23,748 nt of DNA from a virus. Where the stretch lies: the IMG/VR virus record IMGVR_UViG_3300032265_002014, positions 1 through 23,748 of that record. One strand, written 5' to 3'. The notes under the pieces are model-generated. The model had not been told where the DNA came from. It worked only from the letters and a program-made list of their open reading frames with translations, and ran no database searches. This document shows, piece by piece, positions 9,334 to 20,521 of the stretch (the stretch's first letter is position 1; each line of letters begins with the position of its first letter). The position numbers and the translations under genes are program-made.

Positions 9334-9339
9334 TACAGT

Positions 9340-9662: not shown

Positions 9663-9678
9663 TGTGGCATAAGTCACA
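9663..9678. promoter_or_regulatory. CRP/GlxR-type site 4, one mismatch
   Basis: TGTGG-CATAAG-TCACA with the central TA. It begins just after the stop of the 9486 gene and lies upstream of the 9766 operon, where a weak -10 TATCTG is at 9715. Confidence 0.55.
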
Positions 9679-9765
9679 CTTCGCCTTAGGGCGTGTCGCT
9701 ATACAATGTCAGTGCTATCTGATAAACTAATCCTAATAAACAAACTAAAGAAAGGTAGTCTATAA

Positions 9766-9957
9766 ATGACTTACACTATCAAAATCGAAAACTACTCTGG
9801 TACAGAAACCAGAATCGCTCTACCCTCTAAGGGTGCTGTTGCTCAGTTTATCTCTGAGTACCCTGCTAAGTTGCCTGTTGGTATCGCTGTCCGTATATCG
9901 TGTGACGCTCTAGGCGTTTCAGGTATCTTGCGAGGAAAGGCGTTGGTGTCTAACTAA
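9766..9957 (+). CDS. Hypothetical protein, first gene of a TAATG-coupled operon
   Basis: 63 aa (MTYTIKIENYSGTETRIALP and on), beta-strand pattern, ending LGVSGILRGKALVSN. AAAGAAAGGTAG precedes the ATG. Its TAA shares a base with the next ATG. Four further genes follow with the same one-base overlap, so the five make one operon ending at the hairpin at 10592. No family recognised. Confidence 0.6.
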   Translation: MTYTIKIENYSGTETRIALPSKGAVAQFISEYPAKLPVGIAVRISCDALGVSGILRGKALVSN

Positions 9958-10121
9958 TGAAACGACTAATCTCAATCGTGCTAATTGCATTACTCATGCC
10001 AATACCACTAGCACAAGCAAAAGGTCACAGCACACATCACTCATATGGTAAAACACATCATAAACTAACAGGCACTAAGCAACATCGCTACCTACACGCT
10101 ACTCATAGAAAGCATAAATAA
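9957..10121 (+). CDS. Small secreted His-rich protein
   Basis: 54 aa. MKRLISIVLIALLMPIPLAQA is a signal peptide (AQA cleavage), leaving a 33-residue mature peptide with nine His and many Lys/Arg. The signal part is nearly identical to that of the 11887 protein (MKRLIGIVLVALLLPVPIAEA), so they are paralogues in their export part. The mature chain could bind metals or act at the cell surface; unproven. Confidence 0.65.
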   Translation: MKRLISIVLIALLMPIPLAQAKGHSTHHSYGKTHHKLTGTKQHRYLHATHRKHK

Positions 10122-10285
10122 TGAATAAAGAATGTTCCGTAATGAATTGCAATAATACCAATTTGGTGTATAGTGGCGTAGATGCCTTTATGCTAGGTGG
10201 TATCCCTACAGAAAAGTATTGCTACACTTGTGCTGCTGCTTATCTTCAAATTTCCTATGATGTAGAAAATATGGTGAAACTCTAA
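10121..10285 (+). CDS. 54-aa Cys-rich protein
   Basis: The frame encodes MNKECSVMNCNNTNLVYSGV and on, with C-x4-C near the start and CYTC later, a likely zinc knuckle pair. Stop and start share bases with both neighbours. No family known. Confidence 0.6.
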   Translation: MNKECSVMNCNNTNLVYSGVDAFMLGGIPTEKYCYTCAAAYLQISYDVENMVKL

Positions 10286-10458
10286 TGGCTATCTATACTC
10301 GTAAAACTTTTATCTCTGTTTCTAATATCTTAAATGAATTCGTTGAAGATATTGACGAAGTTACTTTCCTTGATTTAGTCGAGGCGTTTGGAGATTTATT
10401 CTATGAAGATAATCCAAACTTTGATTCTGCAAAATTTAGAGAGGCGTGTACAAAATAA
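10285..10458 (+). CDS. 57-aa acidic helical protein
   Basis: The frame encodes MAIYTRKTFISVSNILNEFV followed by an acidic helix (EDIDEVTFLDLVEAFGDLFYEDNP). Its shape recalls small phage proteins that bind other proteins. Coupled on both sides by TAATG. Function unknown. Confidence 0.6.
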   Translation: MAIYTRKTFISVSNILNEFVEDIDEVTFLDLVEAFGDLFYEDNPNFDSAKFREACTK

Positions 10459-10580
10459 TGGTTAGACTAATAACTTCACTCGTTCAAATATTTTTATTTA
10501 TTCCCGCAATGATCGGATTGCATTGGATGTATTTAGATATAAAAAATGAATACAAAAATTTAAATTCACAAATTAAATAA
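10458..10580 (+). CDS. 40-aa single-TM protein
   Basis: The frame encodes MVRLITSLVQIFLFIPAMIG with a membrane helix at about residues 4-24, then a Lys/Asn-rich tail. It is the last gene of the 9766-10580 operon. A membrane role is likely, for example a spanin or holin accessory, but this is not supported by motif. Confidence 0.55.
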   Translation: MVRLITSLVQIFLFIPAMIGLHWMYLDIKNEYKNLNSQIK

Positions 10581-10591
10581 AATAAAATTCC

Positions 10592-10619
10592 TGAGCAAGA
10601 ATAAAAACTGCTCATTTTT
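10592..10619 (+). terminator. Terminator hairpin, copy of the AAAAC-loop family
   Basis: TGAGCA and TGCTCA pair around an 11-nt loop ending AAAAC, followed by TTTTT. It ends the 9766-10580 operon and is one of four related hairpins (see 14118, 15200, 16423). Confidence 0.75.
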
Positions 10620-10644
10620 GAGGCCGACGCTCTCGGGCGTGTCG
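10620..10644 (+). repeat. GC-rich GGCCGACGC...GCGTGTCG element
   Basis: CGACGC can pair with GTGTCG (one G-U) as a small hairpin. Similar elements lie at 12300-12323, and partial ones at 8994-9016, 9066-9074, 9683-9698, 10782-10789, 13507-13547, 15247 and 16559. Confidence 0.6.
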
Positions 10645-10658
10645 TGATTTACGTACGA

Positions 10659-10674
10659 TGTGATTTTTCTCACA
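10659..10674. promoter_or_regulatory. CRP/GlxR-type palindrome 5
   Basis: TGTGA-TTTTTC-TCACA, perfect. Centre is 72.5 bp upstream of the -10 at 10739, one helical turn more than sites 2 and 3. Confidence 0.75.
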
Positions 10675-10715
10675 CCAGTTGAGCGTCTCAATATTTGGAA
10701 TTACTGGCTAGTAAG

Positions 10716-10744
10716 TTGATATTTTTAGACTAATAGGATAGACT
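10716..10744 (+). promoter_or_regulatory. Upstream promoter of the 10859 operon
   Basis: TTGATA, 17 nt, TAGACT, followed by TACAGAGTAAG, like the 9086 and 9305 promoters. Confidence 0.6.
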
Positions 10745-10791
10745 TACAGAGTAAGAAAAAATAAATATTTAAGTATCTACGGCGTGTCGAG

Positions 10792-10820
10792 TTGATAATG
10801 TCAGACCCATATGCTAAGAT
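10792..10820 (+). promoter_or_regulatory. Downstream promoter of the 10859 operon
   Basis: TTGATA, 17 nt, TGC-TAAGAT. An imperfect operator TGATAATGTCA overlaps the -35. Confidence 0.7.
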
Positions 10821-10858
10821 ATTTATATCAAGTTAAATAAAGAAAGAAGGTAGTCAAT

Positions 10859-11080
10859 ATGGCTAACACTTACTCAATAGAAAGCCTCTTAGAGGGAACC
10901 TACTATCGTTCTTATTCTCGCAAGGGATTAGACGGAATTATCCAATACGCAGAAAAGCGTTCTGATGTATGGTATGACAATGCAGAAGCGTATGTCGTTA
11001 AAGTACGCCCCACCTATGACGGAAAAGGTATCTTCCGTAATGACTTCTATGCGACAGTAGTCGTAAAGGTTGGTGACTAA
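10859..11080 (+). CDS. Hypothetical protein, 73 aa
   Basis: The frame encodes MANTYSIESLLEGTYYRSYS and on, with many Tyr and Arg and a final VVVKVGD strand. AAAGAAAGAAGG precedes the ATG. Two promoters and a CRP-like site lie upstream; it opens the 10859-12288 operon. No family recognised. Confidence 0.6.
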   Translation: MANTYSIESLLEGTYYRSYSRKGLDGIIQYAEKRSDVWYDNAEAYVVKVRPTYDGKGIFRNDFYATVVVKVGD

Positions 11081-11082
11081 TA

Positions 11083-11247
11083 ATGGGAAATATTCTAGAT
11101 GAACTCTCAGATGTAACAGTTGTATCTTGTGATGAGTGCAATGGTGCAGGATTTATATTTTGGGGTAACGATAATGATTTTGACGTTATGTCCTGCGATT
11201 GTGTAGAAGAAAATAACGATGAACTAACTTTAGATTGGAATAACTAA
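11083..11247 (+). CDS. 54-aa zinc-ribbon-like protein
   Basis: The frame has CDECNGAGFIFWG and, later, CDC: a DnaJ-like CxxCxGxG knuckle followed by a half knuckle. The rest is acidic. Two bases separate it from the previous stop (TAATAATG), so reinitiation is likely. Function unknown. Confidence 0.6.
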   Translation: MGNILDELSDVTVVSCDECNGAGFIFWGNDNDFDVMSCDCVEENNDELTLDWNN

Positions 11248-11248
11248 T

Positions 11249-11464
11249 ATGGAATACTTATACTCAGTAACTTGTACCTATGATAATGACACAACACCTA
11301 AGTGGATTGGTCGTTACTCAGACGCACTATCCGCAGTAGAAGTCTATCAGAAGTTTATAGACCACGGATTTGCTAATGAATACTCAACAGTTAATCTATC
11401 AGAGCCTAGTGGCAAAATGCACACTAAGGTATTTTATCGCAATGGAAATGTGAGTGTGAAATAA
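11249..11464 (+). CDS. Hypothetical protein, 71 aa
   Basis: The frame encodes MEYLYSVTCTYDNDTTPKWI and on: an alternating strand, a helix (SDALSAVEVYQKFIDHG) and two further strands, an alpha/beta mini-domain. Stop shares a base with the next ATG. It lies in the 10859-12288 operon; no family known. Confidence 0.6.
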   Translation: MEYLYSVTCTYDNDTTPKWIGRYSDALSAVEVYQKFIDHGFANEYSTVNLSEPSGKMHTKVFYRNGNVSVK

Positions 11465-11604
11465 TGCCAGTTTTTCAGTTTAATACTTATATAGACGTAG
11501 AAGCAGCAGACCAAGATGAAGCAGTAAGTTGGTTTGATTATCAGATGTCAAAAACTAATGGATTTTTAGATCGTATATATGTCGCAGAAATAGAGGAGAA
11601 ATAA
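11464..11604 (+). CDS. 46-aa acidic protein
   Basis: The frame encodes MPVFQFNTYIDVEAADQDEA and on to EIEEK. The pattern strand, 'AxDxDEAxxW' helix, strand is similar to that of the 18424-18612 protein (EAVDEIDAEDQV), so both may belong to the same small ferredoxin-like phage family. Coupled by TAATG upstream. Confidence 0.55.
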   Translation: MPVFQFNTYIDVEAADQDEAVSWFDYQMSKTNGFLDRIYVAEIEEK

Positions 11605-11606
11605 TA

Positions 11607-11885
11607 ATGGGAAGCGTAACAGCAATTGGACTTGCAGAGTCAGAATTAGATTTAGAAAAGCAATTGGCATATCACTTGCAAGGTAATCACTATCCACCAG
11701 TGCCACTATCTATGGTGCAACCTTGCATAGATGCTATTGATGCAGCCTATGATGAAGACTATGATAGAGAAATTGAAATGCCCGAAGGCGTATCGTATAA
11801 AGGTTTGACAACAGCACCAGCGTGGGCTATTATTGAACAGCACCACCTTGATTGGTTCATTAACCCAGCAGAAGATGAGGAATAA
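11607..11885 (+). CDS. Hypothetical protein, 92 aa
   Basis: The frame encodes MGSVTAIGLAESELDLEKQL and on, acidic at both ends, with a helix around SMVQPCIDAIDAAYDEDYDRE and an aromatic end (HHLDWFINPAEDEE). AGAGGAG precedes the ATG. It lies between a 46-aa gene and the secreted paralogue at 11887. No recognised domain. Confidence 0.6.
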   Translation: MGSVTAIGLAESELDLEKQLAYHLQGNHYPPVPLSMVQPCIDAIDAAYDEDYDREIEMPEGVSYKGLTTAPAWAIIEQHHLDWFINPAEDEE

Positions 11886-11886
11886 A

Positions 11887-12036
11887 ATGAAAAGACTAAT
11901 TGGAATTGTATTGGTTGCCCTACTATTACCCGTACCAATTGCAGAGGCTAAAGTGTGTGGGGTAAGTCGTACCTACCACGTTAGTGGCTACAAGCATAAA
12001 ACAACTGTCCGCATGACCTACTCTTGCACTAAGTAA
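11887..12036 (+). CDS. Small secreted protein, paralogue of 9957-10121
   Basis: 49 aa; the ATG at 11887 starts a signal peptide MKRLIGIVLVALLLPVPIAEA with likely cleavage after AEA. The mature part (about 28 aa) has two Cys, could form a disulfide, and is basic. The leader matches that of 9957-10121 at about two thirds of positions, while the mature parts differ. It sits one base after the previous stop. Confidence 0.65.
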   Translation: MKRLIGIVLVALLLPVPIAEAKVCGVSRTYHVSGYKHKTTVRMTYSCTK

Positions 12037-12045
12037 AGGAATAAA

Positions 12046-12288
12046 ATGCCTGCTACAATGTTAAACATGGAATTGATACACGCAGACTCACTATCACCAG
12101 ATCAATTAATGGAAGGCGATTTGGTTGAAATTGAAGAAGGAGTTGTTGAAGTAATTTCTTTACAGTCAGATGCGACTGGAGATAATTATTTTGTTGAATG
12201 GCAAAATGAATTTGGTGAACGTGATGAAATTAAAATTAACGTTGATGAAAAAATAAAGTTATTTGTTTTTATTGAAGACAACAAATAA
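12046..12288 (+). CDS. Small beta-barrel-like protein
   Basis: 80 aa: a hydrophobic start, then SLSPDQLMEGDLVEIEEGVVEVISL and on, a pattern of an SH3-like or Hint-like barrel with 'GD-x-V' after a helix. AAAGGAATAAA precedes the ATG. Last gene of the operon that begins at 10859. Nucleic-acid or protein binding is possible, function unknown. Confidence 0.55.
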   Translation: MPATMLNMELIHADSLSPDQLMEGDLVEIEEGVVEVISLQSDATGDNYFVEWQNEFGERDEIKINVDEKIKLFVFIEDNK

Positions 12289-12299
12289 ACTGCAAAACT

Positions 12300-12323
12300 G
12301 AGGCCGACGCAGACGGCGTGTCG
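12300..12323 (+). repeat. GC-rich GGCCGACGC...GCGTGTCG element
   Basis: Second clear copy of the hairpin seen at 10620: GAGGCCGACGC, short loop, GCGTGTCG. It again lies between an operon end and a CRP-like site. Confidence 0.6.
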
Positions 12324-12325
12324 CA

Positions 12326-12341
12326 TGTGAGATTAATCACA
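12326..12341. promoter_or_regulatory. CRP/GlxR-type palindrome 6
   Basis: TGTGA-GATTAA-TCACA, perfect. Centre is 42.5 bp before the -10 at 12376 and 54.5 bp before the ATG that is also the predicted transcription start. Confidence 0.8.
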
Positions 12342-12351
12342 TTTACGTAAG

Positions 12352-12381
12352 TTGACATTTTTGCCCAATGTGTGCTAAGAT
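12352..12381 (+). promoter_or_regulatory. Leaderless promoter of the 12388 gene
   Basis: TTGACA, 18 nt, TGC-TAAGAT, then exactly 6 nt to ATG. Confidence 0.8.
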
Positions 12382-12387
12382 TAATTT

Positions 12388-12534
12388 ATGAAAACAAGAA
12401 AAAGCCCTGAGGAGTTACGCAAACTTATGGAGTTGCGTCGCTCTAATGCTGCCTCTTGCGTTCCCTCAAAGAAAGTCTATCGTAGAACTAGACAAAGCAC
12501 TAGGAAAATGTTAGAATTAACTAAAGAACAATAA
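12388..12534 (+). CDS. 48-aa basic protein, leaderless
   Basis: The frame encodes MKTRKSPEELRKLMELRRSN and on to LELTKEQ, with a Lys/Arg share near one third. It is predicted helical and may bind nucleic acid. Start is fixed by the -10 box 6 nt upstream and by the absence of a ribosome binding site. First gene of a unit with 12547-12693 and GP88. Confidence 0.65.
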   Translation: MKTRKSPEELRKLMELRRSNAASCVPSKKVYRRTRQSTRKMLELTKEQ

Positions 12535-12546
12535 GGAGACCCCCTA

Positions 12547-12693
12547 ATGGAAAACCAATATATCTGCAATAGTTGCAATGAAAACTTAGTTGATGAGTAT
12601 GAAGAGAAGTGTGTGCACTGTATGCTTGAAGAAATGTCTGTAATCTATAATGAAGATATTGCACTAGAAATGAGTCTTGGCCTTGACTACTAA
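12547..12693 (+). CDS. 48-aa zinc-ribbon protein
   Basis: CNSCNE and CVHCMLEE make a CxxC-x11-CxxC ribbon, followed by an acidic helix. AAGGAG lies 9 nt before the ATG. Its end overlaps the GP88 start by 17 nt in another frame, so the two are probably coupled. Confidence 0.65.
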   Translation: MENQYICNSCNENLVDEYEEKCVHCMLEEMSVIYNEDIALEMSLGLDY

Positions 12694-13417
12694 TACACTT
12701 AAACTAAAACGCTCCAATGATCGTAAAGTTGCTAATCTAGTAACTAAGAATGGCAAGCAGGCTGCAATTGCTAATACCTTTGGCCTTCCCGCAGGTAAAG
12801 AATATTCTTGCCCTGGTGCTACTAGCGTATGCGAATCTGTATGCTATGCAGGTAAATTAGAAAAACTCTTCAAGGGTGTAAAGGTTAACCTATTGCATAA
12901 TTGGGACCTATTGAAAGACGCTGATTTACAAACAATGTACACGTTACTTTCTGAGATGATTGCAGAATTTAAAACTGACTGTGTAAAGAAGAATGCACCT
13001 ATGCTATTTCGCATTCATTGGGATGGCGATTTCTTTAACGATGACTACACTCAAGCATGGCGTTTAGTTATTGAAGAACAGCCAGACATTCAATTCTGGG
13101 TATACACTCGTGTAAAGTCTGCTGCTCTTATCCTTAAAGATATTGATAACCTATCTCTTTATTTCAGTACTGATAGTGAGAATGTAAAAGTTGGTGTGGA
13201 CCTTAAAATTAATTCTGGTGTACGCCTTGCATACCTTGCTAAAAACTTTGCAATAGGTCAAGCAGACATGAAAGAAATGATTGGTAAGCCTGGTGCTAAA
13301 TGTCCTGAAAATAATAAACAAATTCCATTGATTAGCGAGAAAGGCTCCGCTTGCGTTTCATGCTCACTTTGTGTATACTCAAAAGCAGACATTGTATTTT
13401 CTGCGAGTAAGAAATGA
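12677..13417 (+). CDS. GP88-family phage protein
   Basis: 246 aa. The protein starts at TTG 12677 (or TTG 12683); no ATG or GTG precedes the conserved part. KNGKQAAIANTFGLPAGKEYSCPGATSVCESVCYA is the hallmark of the family of mycobacteriophage gene product 88, found in actinophages with unknown function. Cysteines 45, 52 and 56 form one cluster; C209, C226, C229 and C232 (ACVSCSLC) form another at the C-terminus, as in iron-sulfur or zinc sites. The middle has HWDGDFF and FWVYTRVKSA, which may be active-site strands. It follows a zinc-ribbon gene and precedes a 19-aa hydrophobic ORF. Confidence 0.8.
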   Translation: MALTTNTLKLKRSNDRKVANLVTKNGKQAAIANTFGLPAGKEYSCPGATSVCESVCYAGKLEKLFKGVKVNLLHNWDLLKDADLQTMYTLLSEMIAEFKTDCVKKNAPMLFRIHWDGDFFNDDYTQAWRLVIEEQPDIQFWVYTRVKSAALILKDIDNLSLYFSTDSENVKVGVDLKINSGVRLAYLAKNFAIGQADMKEMIGKPGAKCPENNKQIPLISEKGSACVSCSLCVYSKADIVFSASKK

Positions 13418-13425
13418 GTTAAACA

Positions 13426-13485
13426 ATGGCACAAATTGTAATTGGAATCTTTGGTCTAATTTTTATTTTATTTTTATTTCAATGA
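13426..13485 (+). CDS. 19-aa hydrophobic micropeptide
   Basis: The frame encodes MAQIVIGIFGLIFILFLFQ, almost entirely one transmembrane helix. It begins 8 nt after the GP88 stop, with AGTTAAACA and no clear ribosome binding site. It is too short for gene finders; the composition is far from random, but translation is unproven. Confidence 0.4.
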   Translation: MAQIVIGIFGLIFILFLFQ

Positions 13486-13547
13486 CTTGATAAGTCCCCC
13501 GAAATGGGGCCGACGCAAAATGATCCATTTGTCAAGTTACGACACGC
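13484..13547 (+). other. Complex stem-loop region after GP88
   Basis: GACTT-GAT-AAGTC and CCCC-GAAAT-GGGG are two adjacent hairpins; ACTTGA can also pair with TCAAGT at 13532-13537. GGCCGACGC and a reversed GCGTGTCG lie in it. Probably a terminator-like boundary or processed RNA end. Confidence 0.4.
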
Positions 13548-13555
13548 TTTAAGAA

Positions 13556-13571
13556 TGTGATGTTTATCACA
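13556..13571. promoter_or_regulatory. CRP/GlxR-type palindrome 7
   Basis: TGTGA-TGTTTA-TCACA, perfect. Centre is 51.5 bp before the proposed -10 at 13615. Confidence 0.75.
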
Positions 13572-13590
13572 AGAAAAATGGGCATTTGGA

Positions 13591-13620
13591 TTGGTATTTT
13601 TGACATTTTTAGTGTAGAAT
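13591..13620 (+). promoter_or_regulatory. Promoter of the 13655 gene
   Basis: TTGGTA, 18 nt, TAGAAT, with the T-rich spacer TTTTTGACATTTTT also found in the 9086/9305 family. A second TTGACA at 13600 fits less well. Confidence 0.5.
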
Positions 13621-13654
13621 TAAACTATAACCCAAACAGAAAGGAAAGACCCCA

Positions 13655-13825
13655 ATGACACTTCACGGATACACTTACCAAATTGGTGACCTATTCACAA
13701 CCAGCAAGACAGGCGTTACAGGTCGTATCGCTAGTTTTTCACCAATCAGTAATAAGGTTACCAGAGTTAGTCTAGTTTTGGCAAATGGCTCTCGTCGCTT
13801 GGCTATGGTCAAGACTTCTAAGTAA
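13655..13825 (+). CDS. Small beta-barrel protein, paralogue of 13929-14093
   Basis: 56 aa. YQIGDLFTTSKTGVTGRIAS matches YKVGDTFTTQKSKVTGTIME of the next gene, and both close with a short strand of small polar residues. The pattern looks like an SH3-like or KOW-like mini-domain, which often binds RNA or DNA; this is an inference. AGAAAGGAAAG precedes the ATG, and the leader is also shared with the next two genes. Confidence 0.65.
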   Translation: MTLHGYTYQIGDLFTTSKTGVTGRIASFSPISNKVTRVSLVLANGSRRLAMVKTSK

Positions 13826-13856
13826 TCTCAAAATGTGAGAAATGTTAGATTTCGAT

Positions 13857-13886
13857 TTGACATTTCAATCTGCAAAATGTTATACT
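13857..13886 (+). promoter_or_regulatory. Promoter of the 13929 gene
   Basis: TTGACA, 18 nt, TATACT. It lies directly after the stop of the paralogous gene. Confidence 0.75.
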
Positions 13887-13928
13887 AATACAGTAAGCAA
13901 AACCCCTAACAGAAAAGGAAATAAACAA

Positions 13929-14093
13929 ATGACAGTAAATACAGCAACTTACAAGGTAGGCGATACTTTCACTACACAGAAGTCAAAGGTAACAGGAACA
14001 ATTATGGAAATTAACCCACAGGCTAATGGAAATGTTCGTGTTAAGTTAGATGTAAATGGTACATCACGCTACACAACTTGGACAGCAAAGTAA
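13929..14093 (+). CDS. Small beta-barrel protein, paralogue of 13655-13825
   Basis: 54 aa with the ATG at 13929, which follows AGAAAAGGAAA; a longer reading from 13842 would cover its own promoter. YKVGDTFTTQKSKVTGTIMEINPQ and a closing TTWTAK share the plan of the preceding gene. Tandem duplication is likely. Function unknown. Confidence 0.65.
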   Translation: MTVNTATYKVGDTFTTQKSKVTGTIMEINPQANGNVRVKLDVNGTSRYTTWTAK

Positions 14094-14117
14094 GTAATTA
14101 GCAATCGCTAAATGACC

Positions 14118-14142
14118 TGAGTAAGTCAATTAAAACTGCTCA
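14118..14142 (+). other. AAAAC-loop hairpin, copy 2
   Basis: TGAGTA and TGCTCA pair (one G-U) around a loop ending AAAAC. No T-run follows, so RNA polymerase may pass into the 14180 gene, which shows no promoter of its own. Confidence 0.6.
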
Positions 14143-14179
14143 ACTCAAACCCCCAACTAACAGAAAAGGAAAGACCCAA

Positions 14180-14602
14180 ATGGCAAGAGGAAAAGCAATC
14201 TCAGTAAAAATCCCTACTGAGCGAGTAATCACGGCACTAGAGGCATCACTAGCAAAACTAGAGTCAGACTACGCATCACAAGAAGCAAACGAAGCAGAGT
14301 ATGAAGTTGCTCGTAAGGCTTGGCAAAAAGAAATCCAAGCGTATGCAATCGCTAACATCACAAATGCTGAGAACTTTCGCACAAACTATCGTTCTTGGAA
14401 TAACAATCTTAACATTGACTTTGATTTGACAGTATCCGAAAAGGATTTGCCAAAAGAGCCAAGCAGAGAGTTCGTAACTCTGCACCAACACACATACAAT
14501 GAGCAAAAAGAGGAAATCGCAAACGCAATTCGTATCCTCAAAATGACAGATGAGGAAGTTGTAAATACTTCCACATACAACGCAGTTGCTCGTTATCTTT
14601 AA
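14180..14602 (+). CDS. Hypothetical helical protein, 140 aa
   Basis: Long helix around residues 10-60 (VITALEASLAKLESDYASQEANEAEYEVARKAWQKEI), probably a coiled coil, then a more mixed middle and a second helix (EQKEEIANAIRILKM). It starts after the same AGAAAAGGAAAGACCCAA leader as 13655. No membrane part and no catalytic motif; a structural or nucleoprotein role is possible. Confidence 0.65.
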   Translation: MARGKAISVKIPTERVITALEASLAKLESDYASQEANEAEYEVARKAWQKEIQAYAIANITNAENFRTNYRSWNNNLNIDFDLTVSEKDLPKEPSREFVTLHQHTYNEQKEEIANAIRILKMTDEEVVNTSTYNAVARYL

Positions 14603-14627
14603 TTAGATAATCGAAACAGGGGCAGTT

Positions 14628-14680
14628 TAGAGAGTGTTCTCGCCCAATGTCGTAAGTAAGAACTCTCCCCCTCTGGGGGT
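14628..14680 (+). other. Two stem-loops in the 14603-14759 gap
   Basis: GAGAGT(G)TTC pairs with GAACTCTC (8 bp with one bulged G), followed directly by CCCCC-TCT-GGGGG (14667-14679), a very stable 5-bp hairpin. No T-run. Likely an RNA boundary or processing site. Confidence 0.45.
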
Positions 14681-14697
14681 AGCCAAATGGATCGCAA

Positions 14698-14727
14698 TTG
14701 ACAAATGTCAGTGGTCTCGTGTACAAT
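14698..14727 (+). promoter_or_regulatory. Promoter of the 14760 gene, with operator
   Basis: TTGACA, 18 nt, TACAAT. TGACA-AA-TGTCA is a perfect palindrome over the -35. ACAAATGTCAGTGGTCT is shared with the 8907 promoter. Confidence 0.75.
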
Positions 14728-14759
14728 TAAATTAATCAAACAAACAGAAAGAGGCCCCC

Positions 14760-15176
14760 ATGGACCAAAACATCACCGTAGTAAATGCAACACATGAATT
14801 CCTTCAAACACAAATCAGTGCACTGCAGGAGTCAATTACATCTAAGGATGAATTCATTCAGCGGTTAAACCAACGTTCATATGCAGATTCAGCAAACCTT
14901 AACCGTATTGTTGAAGACATGCAACAGTGGACCTTGGAATCACTTAGCAATGAATCAATTACAACTTCGCAGGCAGAAGAGATTGCAGCAATCTGCGGAT
15001 TTGAATTAACAAAAGAAGTTGAAGTTGAAGTTACCGTAACTTATAACTTGACACTGCAGGTACCCCATGACGAGGACGAAGAATCAATTGTTAACGATAT
15101 CGATTTTGATTCTGTATCTTATAATTCTGACTACGTCACTTGGCTAAGTTCAAATGTAGACCGTATCGATTTTTAG
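14760..15176 (+). CDS. Hypothetical protein with N-terminal coiled coil, 138 aa
   Basis: Residues 10-60 (HEFLQTQISALQESITSKDEFIQRL ...) form a coiled coil. SEQ from about 65 (SLSNESITTSQAEEIAAICGFEL) is a helical hairpin, and a strand-rich tail (VEVEVTVTYNLTLQVPHDEDE ... YVTWLSSNVDRIDF) follows. AGAAAGAGG precedes the ATG. No family recognised. Gene stands alone between two hairpins. Confidence 0.6.
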   Translation: MDQNITVVNATHEFLQTQISALQESITSKDEFIQRLNQRSYADSANLNRIVEDMQQWTLESLSNESITTSQAEEIAAICGFELTKEVEVEVTVTYNLTLQVPHDEDEESIVNDIDFDSVSYNSDYVTWLSSNVDRIDF

Positions 15177-15199
15177 TAGGGGGCTACTAAATAAATTCC

Positions 15200-15226
15200 T
15201 GGGCCATGAATTAAAACTGGCCCTTT
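15200..15226 (+). terminator. AAAAC-loop hairpin, copy 3, with altered stem
   Basis: GGGCCA and TGGCCC pair around a loop ending AAAAC, then TTTC. The stem differs from copies 1, 2 and 4 in both arms together, which is compensatory change. Confidence 0.6.
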
Positions 15227-15257
15227 CAAAATCCCTGAAAATTTTGGGTCGGCCTCA

Positions 15258-15273
15258 TGTGATGAATCTCACA
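15258..15273. promoter_or_regulatory. CRP/GlxR-type palindrome 8
   Basis: TGTGA-TGAATC-TCACA, perfect. Centre is 89.5 bp upstream of the -10 of the DUF932 gene. Confidence 0.75.
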
Positions 15274-15331
15274 GTGTGTTTAAGATCACGTTTAAGAAAT
15301 GTCCGATTTGCCCCATGTTTACTAAGACGAT

Positions 15332-15360
15332 TTGACTTTGTCAGTCCCCTCTGCTAAGAT
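15332..15360 (+). promoter_or_regulatory. Promoter of the DUF932 gene
   Basis: TTGACT, 17 nt, TGC-TAAGAT. TGAC-TTT-GTCA overlaps the -35 (15333-15343). Confidence 0.8.
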
Positions 15361-15391
15361 TAGGTTATACCCAAAAAGAAAGAAGGAAAAA

Positions 15392-16408
15392 ATGGCTCAT
15401 GAACTCGAAACCCAAAATGGGGTTGCAAGTTTTGCATCATTCCGTGAACCTGCTTGGCATGGTCTCGGAACTGTATTCACAGAAGAAAAAAATACTGCTG
15501 AAATGTTAGAAGCAGCAAATCTAAATAAATGGAATGTACGTCTTGAGGACGTAGTTGTTCCTGAAACATTATCATCAGACAAGAATTATTTTTATGTCGT
15601 GCGTGATAATCCTACTACTGAATCGCAGACTGATATTCTTGGTGTAGTTGGTGAACGTTATCACACATTGCAGAATGAAGATTTATTCTCATTCGGGGAT
15701 AACATTCTCGATGGTGGTGGACGTTGGGAGACTGCTGGTTCACTTAAGGGTGGACGTGTAGTCTTTGGCTCTCTCGCTCTTGAACGTGAAACTGTTCTTG
15801 ACCCTACTGGTGTTGCTGATAAAATCAAAACTTATCTTTTGATTAACACATCACACGATGGTTCTATTGCAATTCAAGCAAGCATAACACCTGTTCGTGT
15901 TGTTTGTGCTAACACTCTCAACATTGCACTTAATCGCACACGCAAGAAGAATGGTGTCAAGCAATCTTTCAAGATTCGCCACACGCAGACAGCAAATGGC
16001 AAGGTGCAAATTGCTCGTGAGACTCTTGGTCTTGCTAATGCTTATATGGATTCATTCGATGTAATGGCTAAGTCACTTTTTGAGAAAGAAGTGAACGCTA
16101 AGCAATTTAACGATATTATTCTTGCAGCGTACCCTAAGCCTGAAAAGGACACTAAGGGTGCTCTCACTAAGTGGGAAAATAAAGTTGATACAATCAACGA
16201 TATTTACACAGGCGAATTTAACGGCATGATTGCTGGTAATGGTTGGGGTGCGTTTAACGCTCTTACTGAACGTCTTGATTGGTATCGCTCTGCTCGTGGT
16301 GGTTCTAACGAATCTATTCTTGCAGCAGCAAGTGGATTTGACCCTGCAATTAACGCAGAGAAAAATCGTTTGCTAAATGTTGTTCGTGACGTTTTGCAGA
16401 TTGCATAA
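15392..16408 (+). CDS. DUF932 phage/plasmid-like protein
   Basis: 338 aa; the ATG at 15392 is used because AAGAAGGAAA lies before it and because the preceding codons cover the promoter. PAWHGLG near the N-terminus, GVVGERYHTLQNEDLF, then TYLLINTSHDGSIAIQASITPVRVVCANTLNIAL are the typical marks of DUF932 (TIGR03299-type), found on phages and plasmids; it has been linked to nucleic-acid metabolism but has no proven activity. Length is usual for the family. The gene is monocistronic with its own promoter and CRP-like site, and ends before the hairpin at 16423. It is the longest gene of the early region, which suggests an important early function. Confidence 0.9.
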   Translation: MAHELETQNGVASFASFREPAWHGLGTVFTEEKNTAEMLEAANLNKWNVRLEDVVVPETLSSDKNYFYVVRDNPTTESQTDILGVVGERYHTLQNEDLFSFGDNILDGGGRWETAGSLKGGRVVFGSLALERETVLDPTGVADKIKTYLLINTSHDGSIAIQASITPVRVVCANTLNIALNRTRKKNGVKQSFKIRHTQTANGKVQIARETLGLANAYMDSFDVMAKSLFEKEVNAKQFNDIILAAYPKPEKDTKGALTKWENKVDTINDIYTGEFNGMIAGNGWGAFNALTERLDWYRSARGGSNESILAAASGFDPAINAEKNRLLNVVRDVLQIA

Positions 16409-16422
16409 CTAAATAAAAATCC

Positions 16423-16445
16423 TGAGCAAGATTTAAAACTGCTCA
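16423..16445 (+). other. AAAAC-loop hairpin, copy 4
   Basis: TGAGCA and TGCTCA pair around AGATTTAAAAC, as in copy 1. It lies 3 nt before the tRNA-Asp, so it may end the DUF932 mRNA or mark tRNA processing. Confidence 0.6.
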
Positions 16446-16448
16446 TCT

Positions 16449-16522
16449 GGTTCCATAGATCAATTGGTTAGATCGCTACCCTGTCACGGTAGAGGCTACG
16501 GGTTCAAGTCCCGTTGGAATCG
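16449..16522 (+). tRNA. tRNA-Asp (anticodon GTC)
   Basis: 74 nt, complete cloverleaf. The acceptor pairs GGTTCCA with TGGAATC (one G-U), the D arm is GATC/GATC, the anticodon arm CTACC-CTGTCAC-GGTAG, and the T arm ACGGG-TTCAAGT-CCCGT. The discriminator is G, as expected for Asp, and CCA is not encoded. It reads GAC/GAU, common in the acidic small proteins nearby. It has no clear promoter and may be cut from the DUF932 transcript. Confidence 0.92.
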
Positions 16523-16530
16523 CAATAAAT

Positions 16531-16603
16531 AAAAATGCAATGCAATGCATAAAAATGCAGGCCGACCAAAAATGTCATTCTCAAAATCAATTACGAAGTC
16601 GGC
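16531..16603 (+). repeat. ATGCA repeats and GCCGAC inverted repeat
   Basis: ATGCA occurs three times in a row (about 16535-16550) and again at 16554. GCCGAC (16561-16566) and GTCGGC (16598-16603) can form a stem with a 31-nt loop. No gene seen in the 16523-16680 gap. Confidence 0.45.
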
Positions 16604-16645
16604 ATATATTTCCAAAAATGTCAAATCAAAATGTTATTAAGATAG

Positions 16646-16674
16646 TTGACATATTTCCCCAAACATGGCATAAT
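16646..16674 (+). promoter_or_regulatory. Leaderless promoter of the 16681 operon
   Basis: TTGACA, 17 nt, CATAAT, then exactly 6 nt to ATG. Confidence 0.75.
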
Positions 16675-16680
16675 TGTCAT

Positions 16681-16848
16681 ATGACCCAAACATACAAACC
16701 TTATACCATAGACGAATTAGTTACTCTCATTTATGAGGATAATCTAGAACATTTTGAGCAAGCCACAGAAGACTGCGACTGCCATTTACATATCACTCTT
16801 AATACTATTGTAAAGTATTGGGAGCAAGACTATGTGGAGACTTACTAA
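16681..16848 (+). CDS. Hypothetical acidic protein, 55 aa, leaderless
   Basis: The ATG at 16681 is 6 nt after the -10 box, so a longer reading from 16540 is rejected. The frame encodes MTQTYKPYTIDELVTLIYED and on, mostly helix, with CDCHLH as possible metal site. Its stop shares a base with the next start. No family recognised. Confidence 0.65.
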   Translation: MTQTYKPYTIDELVTLIYEDNLEHFEQATEDCDCHLHITLNTIVKYWEQDYVETY

Positions 16849-16958
16849 TGCATAAACATCAATGGCTATGTAGCGATGTCCCTGGAGTATATACCTGTGG
16901 ATTTGATTGTGGGTTTGGATATTGGAATCCCGCTAAAGAAATAATAGAGGAGGGGTAA
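16848..16958 (+). CDS. 36-aa Cys/Trp-rich protein
   Basis: The frame encodes MHKHQWLCSDVPGVYTCGFD and on to EIIEEG, with three Cys, a His pair and several Trp/Gly. Coupled on both sides by TAATG. A small zinc-binding protein is possible. Confidence 0.6.
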   Translation: MHKHQWLCSDVPGVYTCGFDCGFGYWNPAKEIIEEG

Positions 16959-17113
16959 TGGCTAAACAATCCTGGTCTTGTGCCACATGTGGTGCTACTA
17001 CAACAGATCCTGAGCATAGGCTAATAGTATACTTTCACATGAACTGTCCAGGGAATGTGACAAAGGTCACACCCGTAGAACTTGACCCTGTCAGCCCAAA
17101 CCCCTATAATTAA
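16958..17113 (+). CDS. 51-aa zinc-binding protein carrying a CRP-like site in its gene
   Basis: CATCGATTTDPEHRL and, later, HMNC give a Cys2-HisCys zinc site (CxxC ... HxxC). AGAGGAGGGG precedes the ATG, which shares a base with the previous stop. Codons for NVTKVT form the CRP-like palindrome at 17056, and the -35/-10 for the next operon lie in its last codons. Confidence 0.6.
   Translation: MAKQSWSCATCGATTTDPEHRLIVYFHMNCPGNVTKVTPVELDPVSPNPYN
17056..17071. promoter_or_regulatory. CRP/GlxR-type palindrome 9, inside a coding region
   Basis: TGTGA-CAAAGG-TCACA, perfect arms. Centre is 41.5 bp before the -10 at 17105 and 53.5 bp before the ATG/transcription start at 17117. Confidence 0.75.
17082..17110 (+). 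promoter_or_regulatory. Leaderless promoter of the 17117 operon
   Basis: TTGACC, 17 nt, TATAAT, exactly 6 nt to ATG. TGAC-CCT-GTCA (17083-17093) overlaps the -35. Confidence 0.85.
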
Positions 17114-17116
17114 TAT

Positions 17117-17275
17117 ATGGACCTAAACACATTAACAGAATATATAAAGATACATCTTATCAGTGTCCAACAAGACTATGATAAGGTACCCGAAGGGGAT
17201 AGAGATTCTATCATCCACCTTAATGGACAACAGTATGCCCTTAATCATATACTAGGAGTATTAGGTGAGCGATAA
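17117..17275 (+). CDS. 52-aa helical protein, leaderless
   Basis: The frame encodes MDLNTLTEYIKIHLISVQQD and on to LGVLGER. All-helical pattern. Start is set by the promoter; the stop lies 11 nt inside the next gene. It opens the seven-gene operon to 18964 (17265, 17504, 17717, 17982, 18424, 18614). No family recognised. Confidence 0.65.
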   Translation: MDLNTLTEYIKIHLISVQQDYDKVPEGDRDSIIHLNGQQYALNHILGVLGER

Positions 17276-17507
17276 GTATCCCTTTATCCCCGAACATTTA
17301 GAAAAGGCTCTTGAGGATATAACTATCCCATTAATCGACCTTATGCATGGACACCTTAAAGTAGAAATGCTTGACTTAGAAGAACTCCTTGACGGAGACA
17401 ATGATGATAGATTTTTGCAAGGGTATATGGAAGCCTTGACAAATATGTATTGCCTAACGTATAATTTATCTATAGACCGTAAACACATAGAGGAGACCCT
17501 AGTATGA
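17265..17507 (+). CDS. 80-aa acidic helical protein, GTG start
   Basis: The frame starts at GTG 17265 (AGGAGTATTA before it) and encodes MSDKYPFIPEHLEKALEDIT and on. It shares its helical layout and acidity with the 17504 and 17717 products. It overlaps both neighbours (11 and 4 nt), which supports coupled translation. Function unknown. Confidence 0.6.
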   Translation: MSDKYPFIPEHLEKALEDITIPLIDLMHGHLKVEMLDLEELLDGDNDDRFLQGYMEALTNMYCLTYNLSIDRKHIEETLV

Positions 17508-17716
17508 CAGACCTAGTTATAGTAAAAGCAACACTTGAAGAAGAAATAGATGAGGCTTGGCATATCTTTAATAAAATTGCCACTGAGGAGGAAGAAGATG
17601 ACTACTCAGACGCTATGCAGTCTATGGAACGAACTGAGGCAAATGGTTTTGCAGTTGGTTTAGAACGTGCCTACTATATTTTATTTAACGAACGCTATAC
17701 TCCAAAGGATAACTAA
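17504..17716 (+). CDS. 70-aa acidic protein
   Basis: The frame encodes MTDLVIVKATLEEEIDEAWH and on; helix-rich, with a run of Glu/Asp in the middle. Start in an ATGA overlap with the preceding stop. AGAGGAG is placed 8 nt before it. No family recognised. Confidence 0.6.
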   Translation: MTDLVIVKATLEEEIDEAWHIFNKIATEEEEDDYSDAMQSMERTEANGFAVGLERAYYILFNERYTPKDN

Positions 17717-17989
17717 ATGGGAATGCGTGATGAATCATGGTGTGCAGGCTGTGGCTGTAGCATAACTTATACAGACGACGAAACTGCCCAATGTGGTACA
17801 TGTGAACGTGATGACGCTATTTCATTTATCGAGGGAATCATTAACTATATAGAGAATGAAAAGAATGAACTCGAAGAGCGTTTGACAAATGTTGACGGGG
17901 CTGATAGTATTTACCCATACCTAGAAGGTGCTGTTGAATACGTTGACCTAATCCTATCGGAAGTAAAGGACAGATACCAAAATGCTTGA
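17717..17989 (+). CDS. Zinc-ribbon protein with helical tail, 90 aa
   Basis: CAGCGC (residues 9-14) and CGTCERDD give a CxxC-x14-CxxC ribbon, with a spare Cys in the first knuckle. The rest is a long acidic coiled coil (FIEGIINYIENEKNELEERL ...). The start abuts the previous stop; the end overlaps the next gene by 8 nt. DNA-binding or adaptor role is likely for such a build. Confidence 0.65.
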   Translation: MGMRDESWCAGCGCSITYTDDETAQCGTCERDDAISFIEGIINYIENEKNELEERLTNVDGADSIYPYLEGAVEYVDLILSEVKDRYQNA

Positions 17990-18437
17990 TACATTTATTG
18001 AAATGGATTTTGATGAATGGGTAAAAACATACAAACCTATTCTTAATCAAATAGACCCCACCTCTTCATTTGATATGGGTGAGGGTGGAACAATGTTTGA
18101 AACATATGGCAAAGAAGTAGAATTCGTCAAGGAGCAAAATGATTCTAATATTTGGATGTATGGCGATGGCGACGATGGTGGTTCTTATATTTGGAGTGGT
18201 TGGGGTTTTGTTAATCGTATTGGTTACTTTATTACTGAAGTCCCTTGCCCACCTAATACAACTATTCAGATTCAAGTTTCTGTACCTTGGTTCTATTGCG
18301 AGAACTGCGATGCAGAGATTGAAGATGAAGGTGGATTAATCAGTGACAAGTTCGGTGGCTTTGATTTTGATTGCTGCCCTGAATGTGCAACCCCTGAACA
18401 ACTAAAAGAGATAGAGGAAACAAATGCCCAGATATAA
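17982..18437 (+). CDS. Hypothetical protein with C-terminal zinc ribbon, 151 aa
   Basis: Residues 1-100 are mixed and aromatic (GDGDDGGSYIWSGWGFVNRIGYFITEVPCP). CENC (about 106-109) and CCPEC (about 131-135) form a second zinc ribbon, with an acidic helix after it. No known family. Located in a tight operon, overlapping the next gene by 14 nt. Confidence 0.65.
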   Translation: MLDTFIEMDFDEWVKTYKPILNQIDPTSSFDMGEGGTMFETYGKEVEFVKEQNDSNIWMYGDGDDGGSYIWSGWGFVNRIGYFITEVPCPPNTTIQIQVSVPWFYCENCDAEIEDEGGLISDKFGGFDFDCCPECATPEQLKEIEETNAQI

Positions 18438-18612
18438 TGTAACTGCAACACGAGAAACCGTCTATGAGTTTGAAATTGAGGCTGTCGATGAAATCGATGC
18501 TGAAGATCAAGTAAGACAATTAGAACTTGAAGGTGAAGTTGAAACTTATGCAATTGACTGGTATCCTTTAGAGATTGAATCCGTAGAAGAAGAAGAAGAG
18601 GAAGAGGAATAA
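18424..18612 (+). CDS. Small acidic protein with poly-Glu tail, 62 aa
   Basis: The frame encodes MPRYNVTATRETVYEFEIEA, a strand pair, then VDEIDAEDQVRQL helix and a strand (TYAIDWYPLEIESV), followed by nine Glu. The fold resembles DpnD/PcfM-like small proteins and the 11464 product. The acid tail could mimic DNA or bind a host protein; this is speculation. Confidence 0.6.
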   Translation: MPRYNVTATRETVYEFEIEAVDEIDAEDQVRQLELEGEVETYAIDWYPLEIESVEEEEEEEE

Positions 18613-18613
18613 A

Positions 18614-18964
18614 ATGGGAGCACGTATTAATTTTGTATTCAAGGACTCAGAGGATGGACCTAGCGTCGTCTTATACAGTCACTGGGGCCAAGATGGCTGG
18701 GAGACAGACATTGCAGGTGCCCTGCAGCATTCACGTCCACGTTGGTCTGATTCATCATATGCGACCAGAATGATGATTAGTTATCTTATTCAACACAATG
18801 TCCTGGATGAAACAGGTTTTGGTATCTATGCTATCACTGGGAATAACTATGACCTAGGCGAACAGACTGTAGTCATCGACTTTACTGATAAAACTATTAC
18901 TGATAATGTATCAGTTGACTGGGATAAATTTGTGGCTGCGTATTGTACGCCACTCCTAGTCTAG
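18614..18964 (+). CDS. Conserved-type phage hypothetical, 116 aa
   Basis: The frame encodes MGARINFVFKDSEDGPSVVLYSHWGQDGWETDIAGAL and on, ending VDWDKFVAAYCTPLLV. The order strand, 'LYSHWGG/Q-x-G' turn, helix, strand is familiar from unassigned phage early proteins. Last gene of the operon; its stop lies in the 9-bp stem at 18957-18984. Confidence 0.6.
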   Translation: MGARINFVFKDSEDGPSVVLYSHWGQDGWETDIAGALQHSRPRWSDSSYATRMMISYLIQHNVLDETGFGIYAITGNNYDLGEQTVVIDFTDKTITDNVSVDWDKFVAAYCTPLLV

Positions 18965-18984
18965 GCCATGGGTCACCTAGACTA
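18957..18984 (+). other. Perfect 9-bp hairpin over a stop codon
   Basis: TAGTCTAGG and CCTAGACTA flank a 10-nt loop. No T-run; it may stabilise the 3' end of the operon. Confidence 0.5.
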
Positions 18985-18994
18985 ACTAAATAAA

Positions 18995-19038
18995 GAGGCA
19001 GGGGTGTTAGAGGGGTCTTGCATTCCTGTCCTCTTTTT
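18995..19038 (+). terminator. Rho-independent terminator touching the next promoter
   Basis: GAGGCAGG and CCTGTCCTC pair (8 bp, one bulge), then TTTTT at 19034-19038. The last T is the first base of the next extended -10. Confidence 0.75.
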
Positions 19039-19046
19039 GGTATAAT
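19038..19046 (+). promoter_or_regulatory. Extended -10 promoter of the 19064 gene
   Basis: TGGTATAAT directly after the terminator T-run; the leader has AAAGGGAG. No -35 match. Confidence 0.6.
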
Positions 19047-19063
19047 GGAAAGGGAGATGAGAA

Positions 19064-19288
19064 ATGACAATCAGAATCAAACATAAATTAACAGATGAAG
19101 AAAAGTTGGCAATTAAGTTAAGTAATCTAGTCGTAGATTTGCGGGTAGATTTAGAATTAGTAGGAAGATACCTAGCAAGACTAACTCCTACTGTCGTGTA
19201 TAATAGATTCATAACCATAGCAGAATCAGCCCAATATGAGAAAGAAGGAAAGCATGACGACAGCAAATATCAAGACTCCCTATACTAA
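19064..19288 (+). CDS. Basic helical protein, 74 aa
   Basis: The frame encodes MTIRIKHKLTDEEKLAIKLS and on; two or three helices, mixed charge, no motif. AAGGGAG precedes the ATG. The last 35 nt overlap the next gene in another frame. Function unknown. Confidence 0.6.
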   Translation: MTIRIKHKLTDEEKLAIKLSNLVVDLRVDLELVGRYLARLTPTVVYNRFITIAESAQYEKEGKHDDSKYQDSLY

Positions 19289-19541
19289 CATTTGTGCAAT
19301 ACTAGCAGAGTTATGGCTAGACTATAAGACAGACCCTGAGTTTGTTGATTTTATTGAATACAATGATTTGGGATTGCCTCTAGCCTTTGCTATTCATGAA
19401 GGCATTGTAGAAGATACACTTATGTCTGCTGCATACATTCAAGAAACTTGGGACTTATTCATTACTTCCTTAGAGATTGAAGATACAGGGTTTGACAACC
19501 TTAATGAAGTAATCTCTTCTGTTGGACCAAAAGAGATCTAA
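19254..19541 (+). CDS. Hypothetical acidic protein, 95 aa
   Basis: The ATG at 19254 has AGAAGGAAA before it and is preferred over 19236. The frame encodes MTTANIKTPYTNICAILAEL and on; helical, Asp/Glu-rich, one Cys. Overlaps the end of the 19064 gene. No family recognised. Confidence 0.6.
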   Translation: MTTANIKTPYTNICAILAELWLDYKTDPEFVDFIEYNDLGLPLAFAIHEGIVEDTLMSAAYIQETWDLFITSLEIEDTGFDNLNEVISSVGPKEI

Positions 19542-19567
19542 CCCGAGACCGAGTTTTTTAAAACGCT

Positions 19568-19609
19568 CCTTTACGAAGGGGCCTTTACGATCCCTGGTTT
19601 ACGATCCCC
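19568..19609 (+). repeat. Three 14-bp direct repeats with TTTACGA core
   Basis: CCTTTACGAAGGGG, CCTTTACGATCCCT, GGTTTACGATCCCC, end to end. They lie 36-77 bp upstream of the transcription start of a promoter lacking a -35, the usual place for activator sites. A fourth TTTACGA is at 19956. Confidence 0.6.
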
Positions 19610-19629
19610 AAACCCTATTTGCCAAACAA

Positions 19630-19638
19630 TGGTATAAT
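19630..19638 (+). promoter_or_regulatory. Leaderless extended -10 promoter of the 19645 gene
   Basis: TGGTATAAT, then 6 nt to ATG; no -35. Confidence 0.7.
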
Positions 19639-19644
19639 TTATAT

Positions 19645-19881
19645 ATGGCCAGAGATCATTTTGCACAATACAAAAAGAATGAACCACAAGAGTATGCTGC
19701 TTTTAGTAATGCGATGTGGGATTCATTTGTTAGTGTTACTAAGATTGTTGGTCTTGGTAAGTTCTTCTCTTTTACCCCCGACAAACTTGACATCACAGAT
19801 TACGATCCCGAACTTACAGGTGCTGCCCTTGGCGAAGTCTACAATTTTTCGCAGGGGATAGAAGATACACCTGATCTATAG
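19645..19881 (+). CDS. Hypothetical protein, 78 aa, leaderless
   Basis: The frame encodes MARDHFAQYKKNEPQEYAAF and on, helical, with an acidic second half (PDKLDITDYDPELTG). The ATG at 19645 is fixed by the promoter; a frame that starts at 19522 would cover the direct repeats and is rejected. Last gene before the origin-like region. No family recognised. Confidence 0.6.
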   Translation: MARDHFAQYKKNEPQEYAAFSNAMWDSFVSVTKIVGLGKFFSFTPDKLDITDYDPELTGAALGEVYNFSQGIEDTPDL

Positions 19882-20014
19882 TATAAAACACCTTATATAA
19901 AACAATAGAAAAACAATATAAAACATTTAAATTTGTTTTGATTTGTTTTGATTCCTTTACGAAAACATTCAAGAATCTCCCAAAGTTGTCAAAAAATTTG
20001 CTATGCAAATAAAG

Positions 20015-20043
20015 TTGACAAATTGGGACAAACATTGTATAAT
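20015..20043 (+). promoter_or_regulatory. Perfect sigma70 consensus promoter without an obvious gene
   Basis: TTGACA, 17 nt, TATAAT. Only a 9-codon frame follows, so it may make a primer or regulatory RNA for the origin region. Confidence 0.75.
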
Positions 20044-20082
20044 TCGCTATCCAAATATGCCAGATATGCCAGATATAAAGGT

Positions 20083-20111
20083 TTGACAAAGGTTTGAATA
20101 TGTGGTATAAG
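20083..20111 (+). promoter_or_regulatory. Near-consensus promoter in the origin region
   Basis: TTGACA, 17 nt, TATAAG; AGGTTTG repeats flank both ends. A GAGG and an ATG at 20122 follow. Confidence 0.65.
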
Positions 20112-20121
20112 AGGTTTGGAT

Positions 20122-20256
20122 ATGGCCCCAGGTAAAAAAAAGATTACGATGGCCCCTTTAAATCTGCTTTATACTCCACTATCCTCCACAACACTCCACT
20201 TCATGCTATCTAATAATCTAATCAGTAAGATCTATATGTGGATAACATGTGGATAA
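20122..20256 (+). CDS. Possible 44-aa protein (doubtful)
   Basis: The frame encodes MAPGKKKITMAPLNLLYTPL and on to WITCG, ending in the second DnaA box. GAGG is 7 nt before the ATG and a promoter lies at 20083. Composition is plausible but it has no motif and overlaps two DnaA boxes, so it may be chance. Confidence 0.25.
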   Translation: MAPGKKKITMAPLNLLYTPLSSTTLHFMLSNNLISKIYMWITCG

Positions 20257-20300
20257 CTACCAAACATATGTAATAGATATGTTCTATAGCCTGTGGATAA
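20237..20300 (-). promoter_or_regulatory. Cluster of three DnaA boxes
   Basis: TGTGGATAA at 20237-20245, 20248-20256 and 20292-20300, all in one direction (TTATCCACA on the minus strand). A fourth is at 20513-20521, over the stop of the next gene. Confidence 0.7.
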
Positions 20301-20317
20301 CTCTGTTAACCTTGATG

Positions 20318-20326
20318 TGATACTAT
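20318..20326 (+). promoter_or_regulatory. Leaderless extended -10 promoter of the 20333 gene
   Basis: TGA-TACTAT, then 6 nt to ATG; no -35 match. Confidence 0.55.
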
Positions 20327-20332
20327 AGACAT

Positions 20333-20521
20333 ATGATAACAATAATCGCAATAGCATTAACTTGGTATGCTACAAAGGTATACTACACAAAACAATTTAT
20401 AATTGAGGTAGCAGAAAAAGATCCAACAATGAGCCATATTCAATGTTCTGGATGCTCTCAAATCATATACACAAATAAGGAAAACTTTAGAGTTCCTTAC
20501 TACTGTATGACCTGTGGATAA
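20333..20521 (+). CDS. Single-TM zinc-ribbon protein, 62 aa
   Basis: The N-terminus MITIIAIALTWYATKVYYTK is a membrane anchor. HIQCSGCSQI and YYCMTCG form a CxxC-x17-CxxC zinc ribbon at the C-terminus, on the cytoplasmic side by the positive-inside rule. It is leaderless, and 9 nt separate it from the hydrolase gene. A membrane-tethered ribbon could recruit a host factor; unproven. Confidence 0.65.
   Translation: MITIIAIALTWYATKVYYTKQFIIEVAEKDPTMSHIQCSGCSQIIYTNKENFRVPYYCMTCG

Follow-up and report, generated by a model that had tools for sequence, protein, structure and literature searches.

A conserved non-coding element with optional DnaA boxes: a candidate lytic replication origin at the terminal-repeat edge of relatives of Streptomyces phages

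A non-coding element of ~110 bp, comprising ATTACGA, three copies of CTCCAC with 10-bp spacing, AT-rich DNA ending in CAGTAANAT and tandem DnaA boxes, recurs among viral relatives of the window studied here, a stretch of 23,748 bp that is an entire IMG/VR record (one that carries no completeness estimate). From sequence comparison the element is best read as a cis-acting phage locus adjoining the inner edge of a long terminal repeat. We put the probability that it is a lytic replication origin at that edge, with host DnaA as an optional helper, at about 0.5. The element bears on how phages copy long direct terminal repeats, and on whether host DnaA helps to start lytic replication despite a phage-encoded polymerase and helicase.

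Anatomy and conservation of the element

The features of the window are as follows.

8515..8567, + strand: signature of the other terminal-repeat edge, GATGTATG/ATACAC (slash at the edge) plus ATAGTGAGCACAT, with 1 mismatch in 14 nt
8523..20142, no strand: predicted direct terminal repeat, ~11.6 kb, from the outer-edge signature and relatives
15332..16408, + strand: DUF932 gene, read towards the element; within the terminal repeat in Streptomyces relatives
20015..20043, + strand: perfect sigma-70-type promoter, TTGACA-N17-TATAAT; upstream promoter in 80/96 relatives vs ~7 in shuffles
20079..20118, + strand: AGGTTTG repeats (20079, 20090, 20112), overlapping the second promoter and possibly operator repeats; GGTTTG in at least two copies in 81% of 96 relatives, spacing variable
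20083..20111, + strand: second promoter, TTGACA-N17-TATAAG, seen in the sequence
20143..20149, + strand: ATTACGA, where the conserved core starts, also the predicted inner terminal-repeat edge; 92-98 bp from box 1 in 100/100
20174..20199, + strand: three CTCCAC direct repeats (20174, 20184, 20194), iteron-like, at exact 10-bp spacing; spacing 10 in 119/122 gaps across relatives
20223..20231, + strand: CAGTAANAT motif, ending the AT-rich stretch; in 67/72 core elements found without using CAGTAANAT, among the matches listed, and kept with and without DnaA boxes
20237..20245, - strand: DnaA box 1 (TTATCCACA), first of the tandem pair; position kept in 100 element-matched relatives (the search pattern required box 1)
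20248..20256, - strand: DnaA box 2, separated from box 1 by 2 nt; 84/100 pattern-selected elements have such a tandem pair, the spacer being 2-3 nt
20292..20300, - strand: DnaA box 3; 60/100 relatives have one more box within 120 nt, position variable
20333..20521, + strand: 62-aa ORF with two CxxC pairs, first ORF past the element (from the ORF list)
20513..20521, - strand: fourth TTATCCACA, sharing its letters with the last codons of the 62-aa ORF

Every motif named in a first-pass annotation lies where that annotation had placed it, namely the four TTATCCACA boxes, all on the - strand, the AGGTTTG repeats at 11- and 22-bp spacing, the direct repeats ATATGCCAG (20055 and 20064) and ATTTGTTTTG (19931 and 19941), and the perfect promoter. 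The second promoter, the three CTCCAC repeats, ATTACGA (20143) and CAGTAA (20223) were absent from it. Its statement that no gene follows the promoter was too strong, as + strand ORFs of 62 and 205 aa begin at 20333 and 20531. With a fifth copy at 9027, the window holds five TTATCCACA against 0.30 expected, a count reached in 0 of 100 shuffles. The proposed cluster of four boxes holds for the phased boxes 1-3, whereas the fourth copy coincides with the codons TGT GGA TAA (Cys-Gly-stop) that end the 62-aa ORF, so that it calls for no regulatory explanation and is probably not a functional box.

Relatives were gathered via the DUF932-like gene, which gave 58 related contigs. In many of these, box pairs lie 3.3-5.5 kb past the gene, and side-by-side reading revealed one element. 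A scan with CAGTAANATNWWWNTGTGGATAA returned at least 119 IMG/VR viral stretches against 5 unrelated matches in 257 Gb of bacterial genomes; host mimicry was rejected because the bacterial chromosomes gave only these five scattered single matches. After removal of near-duplicates, the matches listed contain at least 100 distinct loci with ATTACG 92-98 bp before box 1 and with the CTCCAC spacing given above. The search pattern fixed box 1 and CAGTAANAT, and a later filter selected for ATTACG, hence the presence of these three in the 100-element set is by selection and their spacing is not. Downstream of the boxes conservation drops sharply. Each of the seven largest genomes examined carries exactly one copy of the element. 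No conserved hairpin was found after ATTACGA, where folding energies resemble those of shuffles, a search for known RNA families gave nothing but two tRNAs, and direct DNA comparison gave no similarity to named phages.

The large relatives are 98-123 kb in size. By DnaE and DUF932 the closest named phages are Streptomyces phages of the Stanwilliamsviridae, at 52-55% identity, and on these best matches the present phages are probably relatives of that group. Since the closest named phages infect Streptomyces, the host is probably an actinobacterium.

DnaA boxes, trinucleotide run and replication genes

Some relatives that seemed to lack the site do have its ATTACGA and CTCCAC repeats in place, and usually CAGTAANAT as well, but no box. 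A box-independent scan, for which ATTACGA and two CTCCAC repeats were the sole requirements, found 72 distinct elements among the matches listed. An exact box occurs at the site in 43 of them and a tandem pair in 37 (compared with the 84 of 100 found by pattern), and 29 have none; at least one of these 29 (L500) looks like a chance match. Because 29 of the 72 lack boxes, conservation of the element does not come from DnaA alone, and the sequences point to the DnaA sites being a common but optional part of it. Among 31 loci that span the region, a number that includes near-duplicate contigs, 27 have a box at the element site, a box pair at a second site within the predicted repeat, or both.

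This second pair, oppositely oriented and often ATTCACAT-TGTGGATAA, is found inside the predicted repeat in many relatives (for example L030:4606-4626 and L035:4947-4967) and is not flanked by a trio-like stretch; in the window a single box, the copy at 9027, lies in the region 8990-9060. We rejected the second pair as the other repeat edge because of its position within the predicted repeat and because the outer-edge signature occurs at a different place.

Bacterial unwinding modules consist of tandem DnaA boxes followed by trinucleotides with a central A, the DnaA-trios (PMC8287927), and the tandem boxes of the element with the adjacent stretch of A at every third base fit this layout of bacterial origins. 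In a set chosen via the DUF932 gene and box pairs only, trio runs average 5.45; shuffled sequence gives 2.70 (sd 0.25), unrelated viral box pairs 2.18 and the second box pair of these phages 1.50. Members of the set are related, so that these values are not statistically independent. In the window a run of 4 occurs at a spacer of 5, by a criterion of at least three NAN trios within 16 bp of the box. Box-free elements contain a similar stretch and keep most of the trio-like pattern, and the trios are therefore a fit and not a proof, without specificity for DnaA; we set them aside as proof of DnaA dependence. As the pattern persists without boxes, the stretch appears to have a role independent of DnaA. 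The resemblance to the basal unwinding system of bacterial oriC (PMC8287927) thus lies in tandem boxes 2-3 nt apart, a short spacer and a central-A trinucleotide run, whereas the element differs in being phage-borne, in its CTCCAC repeats and terminal-repeat edge, and in keeping the trio-like stretch where boxes are absent.

The trio comparison apart, the element invites comparison with iteron origins. In those with DnaA boxes, of the P1 oriR type, direct repeats, AT-rich DNA and DnaA boxes stand side by side, and the usual iterons are long. The element likewise has direct repeats, AT-rich DNA and adjacent DnaA boxes, but its repeats are of 6 bp at 10-bp spacing rather than long iterons, and no rep gene was found alongside, nor any initiator family among the neighbours scanned.

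A Pol III alpha subunit and a DnaB-type helicase are encoded in all 11 large relatives tested, and neither a family A polymerase nor DnaA was found in any of the 11, in searches whose controls behaved. The DnaE and DnaB genes lie tens of kb from the element. The earlier argument that a phage without its own polymerase would leave initiation to the host fails, as these relatives have their own Pol III alpha and DnaB. The first-pass annotation had also held that the lack of a GC-skew switch would count against an origin. Raw skew in seven large relatives shows no switch at the element, and skew at fourfold sites split by gene strand gave no consistent replication-strand effect; however, the skew of these phages tracks gene strand and has little power to test for an origin.

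The terminal repeat and its edges

In Jay2Jay the DUF932 gene lies within the direct terminal repeat. For eight phages of the Jay2Jay subcluster the ends were set from read starts at single positions and from twofold coverage (PMC5764925); the Jay2Jay repeat measures 10,778 bp in the table of that paper and 11,438 bp in the deposited record. All seven Streptomyces phages compared have a box TGTGGATAA at a distance of exactly 71 bp from the first base of the deposited repeat, on its outer side, and a second box at 93-95 bp on that side, with GTGTGTAAT standing at the edge. The box stretch is the best-conserved part of this edge intergenic region across 43 records. A limited search of the open-access literature found no report of DnaA boxes at terminal-repeat edges. 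Given that seven isolates have a box exactly 71 bp from the deposited end and that ~100 aquatic relatives have a conserved site in the matching place, both of the questions raised at the outset become testable in culturable Streptomyces phages.

In Streptomyces cluster BE (Stanwilliamsviridae, Boydwoodruffvirinae; Jay2Jay, Samisti12, Braelyn, LilMartin, EGole, Peebs and Riptide), as predicted for the window, intergenic DnaA boxes lie at the edge of the terminal repeat, on the side that DUF932 reads towards; Jay2Jay has the same outer-edge signature, and the DUF932 and DnaE proteins are ~52-55% identical. The cluster differs in that the boxes are inverted and 13-15 nt apart, CTCCAC, CAGTAA and the trio run are lacking, and GC content is ~50%.

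The opposite, outer edge reads ATGTAT/CATACATC, with ATGGGCGCACTAT inside, and is common to Jay2Jay and BillNye. The signature recurs in the relatives, 11.3-14.5 kb upstream of the element and in the same strand orientation, with 0 matches in 1.54 Mb of reversed control; four of seven large genomes gave no match at that stringency. In the window the strand of the signature and its distance from the boxes (11.7 kb) are as expected, which predicts a repeat at ~8523-20142 with the element just outside it. Assembly would collapse such a repeat, which would then stand once in the record. The inner edge is predicted at ATTACGA by analogy with CATTACACAC at the Streptomyces phage repeat edge, and is less certain than the outer one. 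Six contigs start close to ATTACGA, a weak clustering of contig ends that was spotted after the fact.

In BillNye (Loccivirinae) a conserved intergenic cluster of DnaA boxes, shared by 35 Streptomyces records, occupies the same part of the genome as in the window, and the outer-edge signature is the same. BillNye has a repeat of 2.26 kb, however, whose edge is ~5.4 kb away from this cluster, so that boxes and edge are separable, which favours an origin. The cluster consists of three boxes with a fourth ~255 bp on, far from the short terminal repeat (L369:22340-22640; BillNye 119.4-119.7 kb).

Two minor observations concern sequence ends. TTACGA recurs on the + strand near the predicted repeat end (19571-19611, 19799, 19957 and 20143), sometimes followed by a C-rich run. 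In IMGVR_UViG_3300002835_000041 (G022; 118,981 bp) the first bases recur at 115,547, giving an overlap of ~3.4 kb away from the predicted terminal repeat that is probably a circular assembly overlap.

Candidate functions

The conserved anatomy, the single copy, the presence of DnaB and DnaE without DnaA in the relatives, and the link to a terminal-repeat edge in related phages are the observations on which the origin reading is built. From these we infer protein binding, unwinding and initiation at the element, as well as the exact inner edge in the window phage. A phage protein would bind the three CTCCAC repeats, and host DnaA, where boxes are present, would bind the tandem pair and help to open the AT-rich stretch ending CAGTAANAT. 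Transcription from the two repeat-edge promoters would cross the site and aid opening or priming, and phage DnaB and DnaE would load afterwards. The origin first proposed for this region thus keeps its support in a conserved, non-coding, single-copy site that is AT-rich beside tandem boxes and has promoters reading across it; it is weakened by the box-free elements (29 of the 72 among the matches listed) and by the lack of a skew switch. The absence of CTCCAC repeats and trio run from the Streptomyces relatives also counts against it, as do the remoteness of the DnaE and DnaB genes and the lack of any initiator family among the neighbours scanned.

Since the element lies just outside the predicted 11.6-kb repeat, end-processing is a serious alternative and the main rival, one that the first-pass annotation missed, although we consider it less likely than an origin. 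A terminase or nicking enzyme would read CTCCAC and cut near ATTACGA to make the inner end, with the DnaA boxes accessory, like IHF at lambda cos. Such a packaging site is consistent with the invariant 71 bp between box and deposited edge and with GTGTGTAAT at that edge in seven of seven Streptomyces phages, whose subcluster ends were determined by read pile-ups (PMC5764925), as well as with the six contigs that begin near ATTACGA and the conservation of the core where it is box-free. However, the BillNye box element is 5.4 kb from its repeat edge, the Streptomyces phage repeat edge has no CTCCAC repeats, and cutting needs neither an AT-rich stretch nor promoters across the site. The origin and end-processing readings could both be true. 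A more specific and rather improbable proposal makes initiation of replication at the element, using host DnaA in most members, the event that both delimits the terminal repeat and copies it; synthesis would start a fixed distance outside the inner edge and run through to a terminase-cut outer edge.

It is unlikely that the element is instead a regulatory leader, in which an untranslated leader would, together with promoters and operator repeats, govern the variable downstream genes and DnaA would act as a transcription factor or be titrated. Strong promoters do overlap the AGGTTTG repeats, the + strand ORFs at 20333 and 20531 follow with no other good promoter between, and the second DnaA-box pair in the predicted repeat occurs without origin-like features. 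Yet the best-conserved part lies downstream of the start sites, with fixed spacing, a 10-bp helix periodicity and no conserved hairpin; a separate promoter is present past the boxes in 25% of relatives, and the element is conserved where the sequence past the boxes is not. Chance clustering of DnaA-box-like words in AT-rich DNA would suit the fourth copy, a mere set of Cys-Gly-stop codons, but is extremely improbable for the whole given the shuffles, and for boxes 1-3 is refuted by conservation of the same arrangement in at least 100 distinct relatives.

The genes just past the element (20531-23594) have the look of variable cargo. One product has few relatives (found in 3 contigs), another shows weak luciferase-like similarity, and a third is of a pyrimidine-dimer glycosylase family. 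Elsewhere in the window, an ORF on the - strand (2969-3532) contains repeated FGFSPFSV units.
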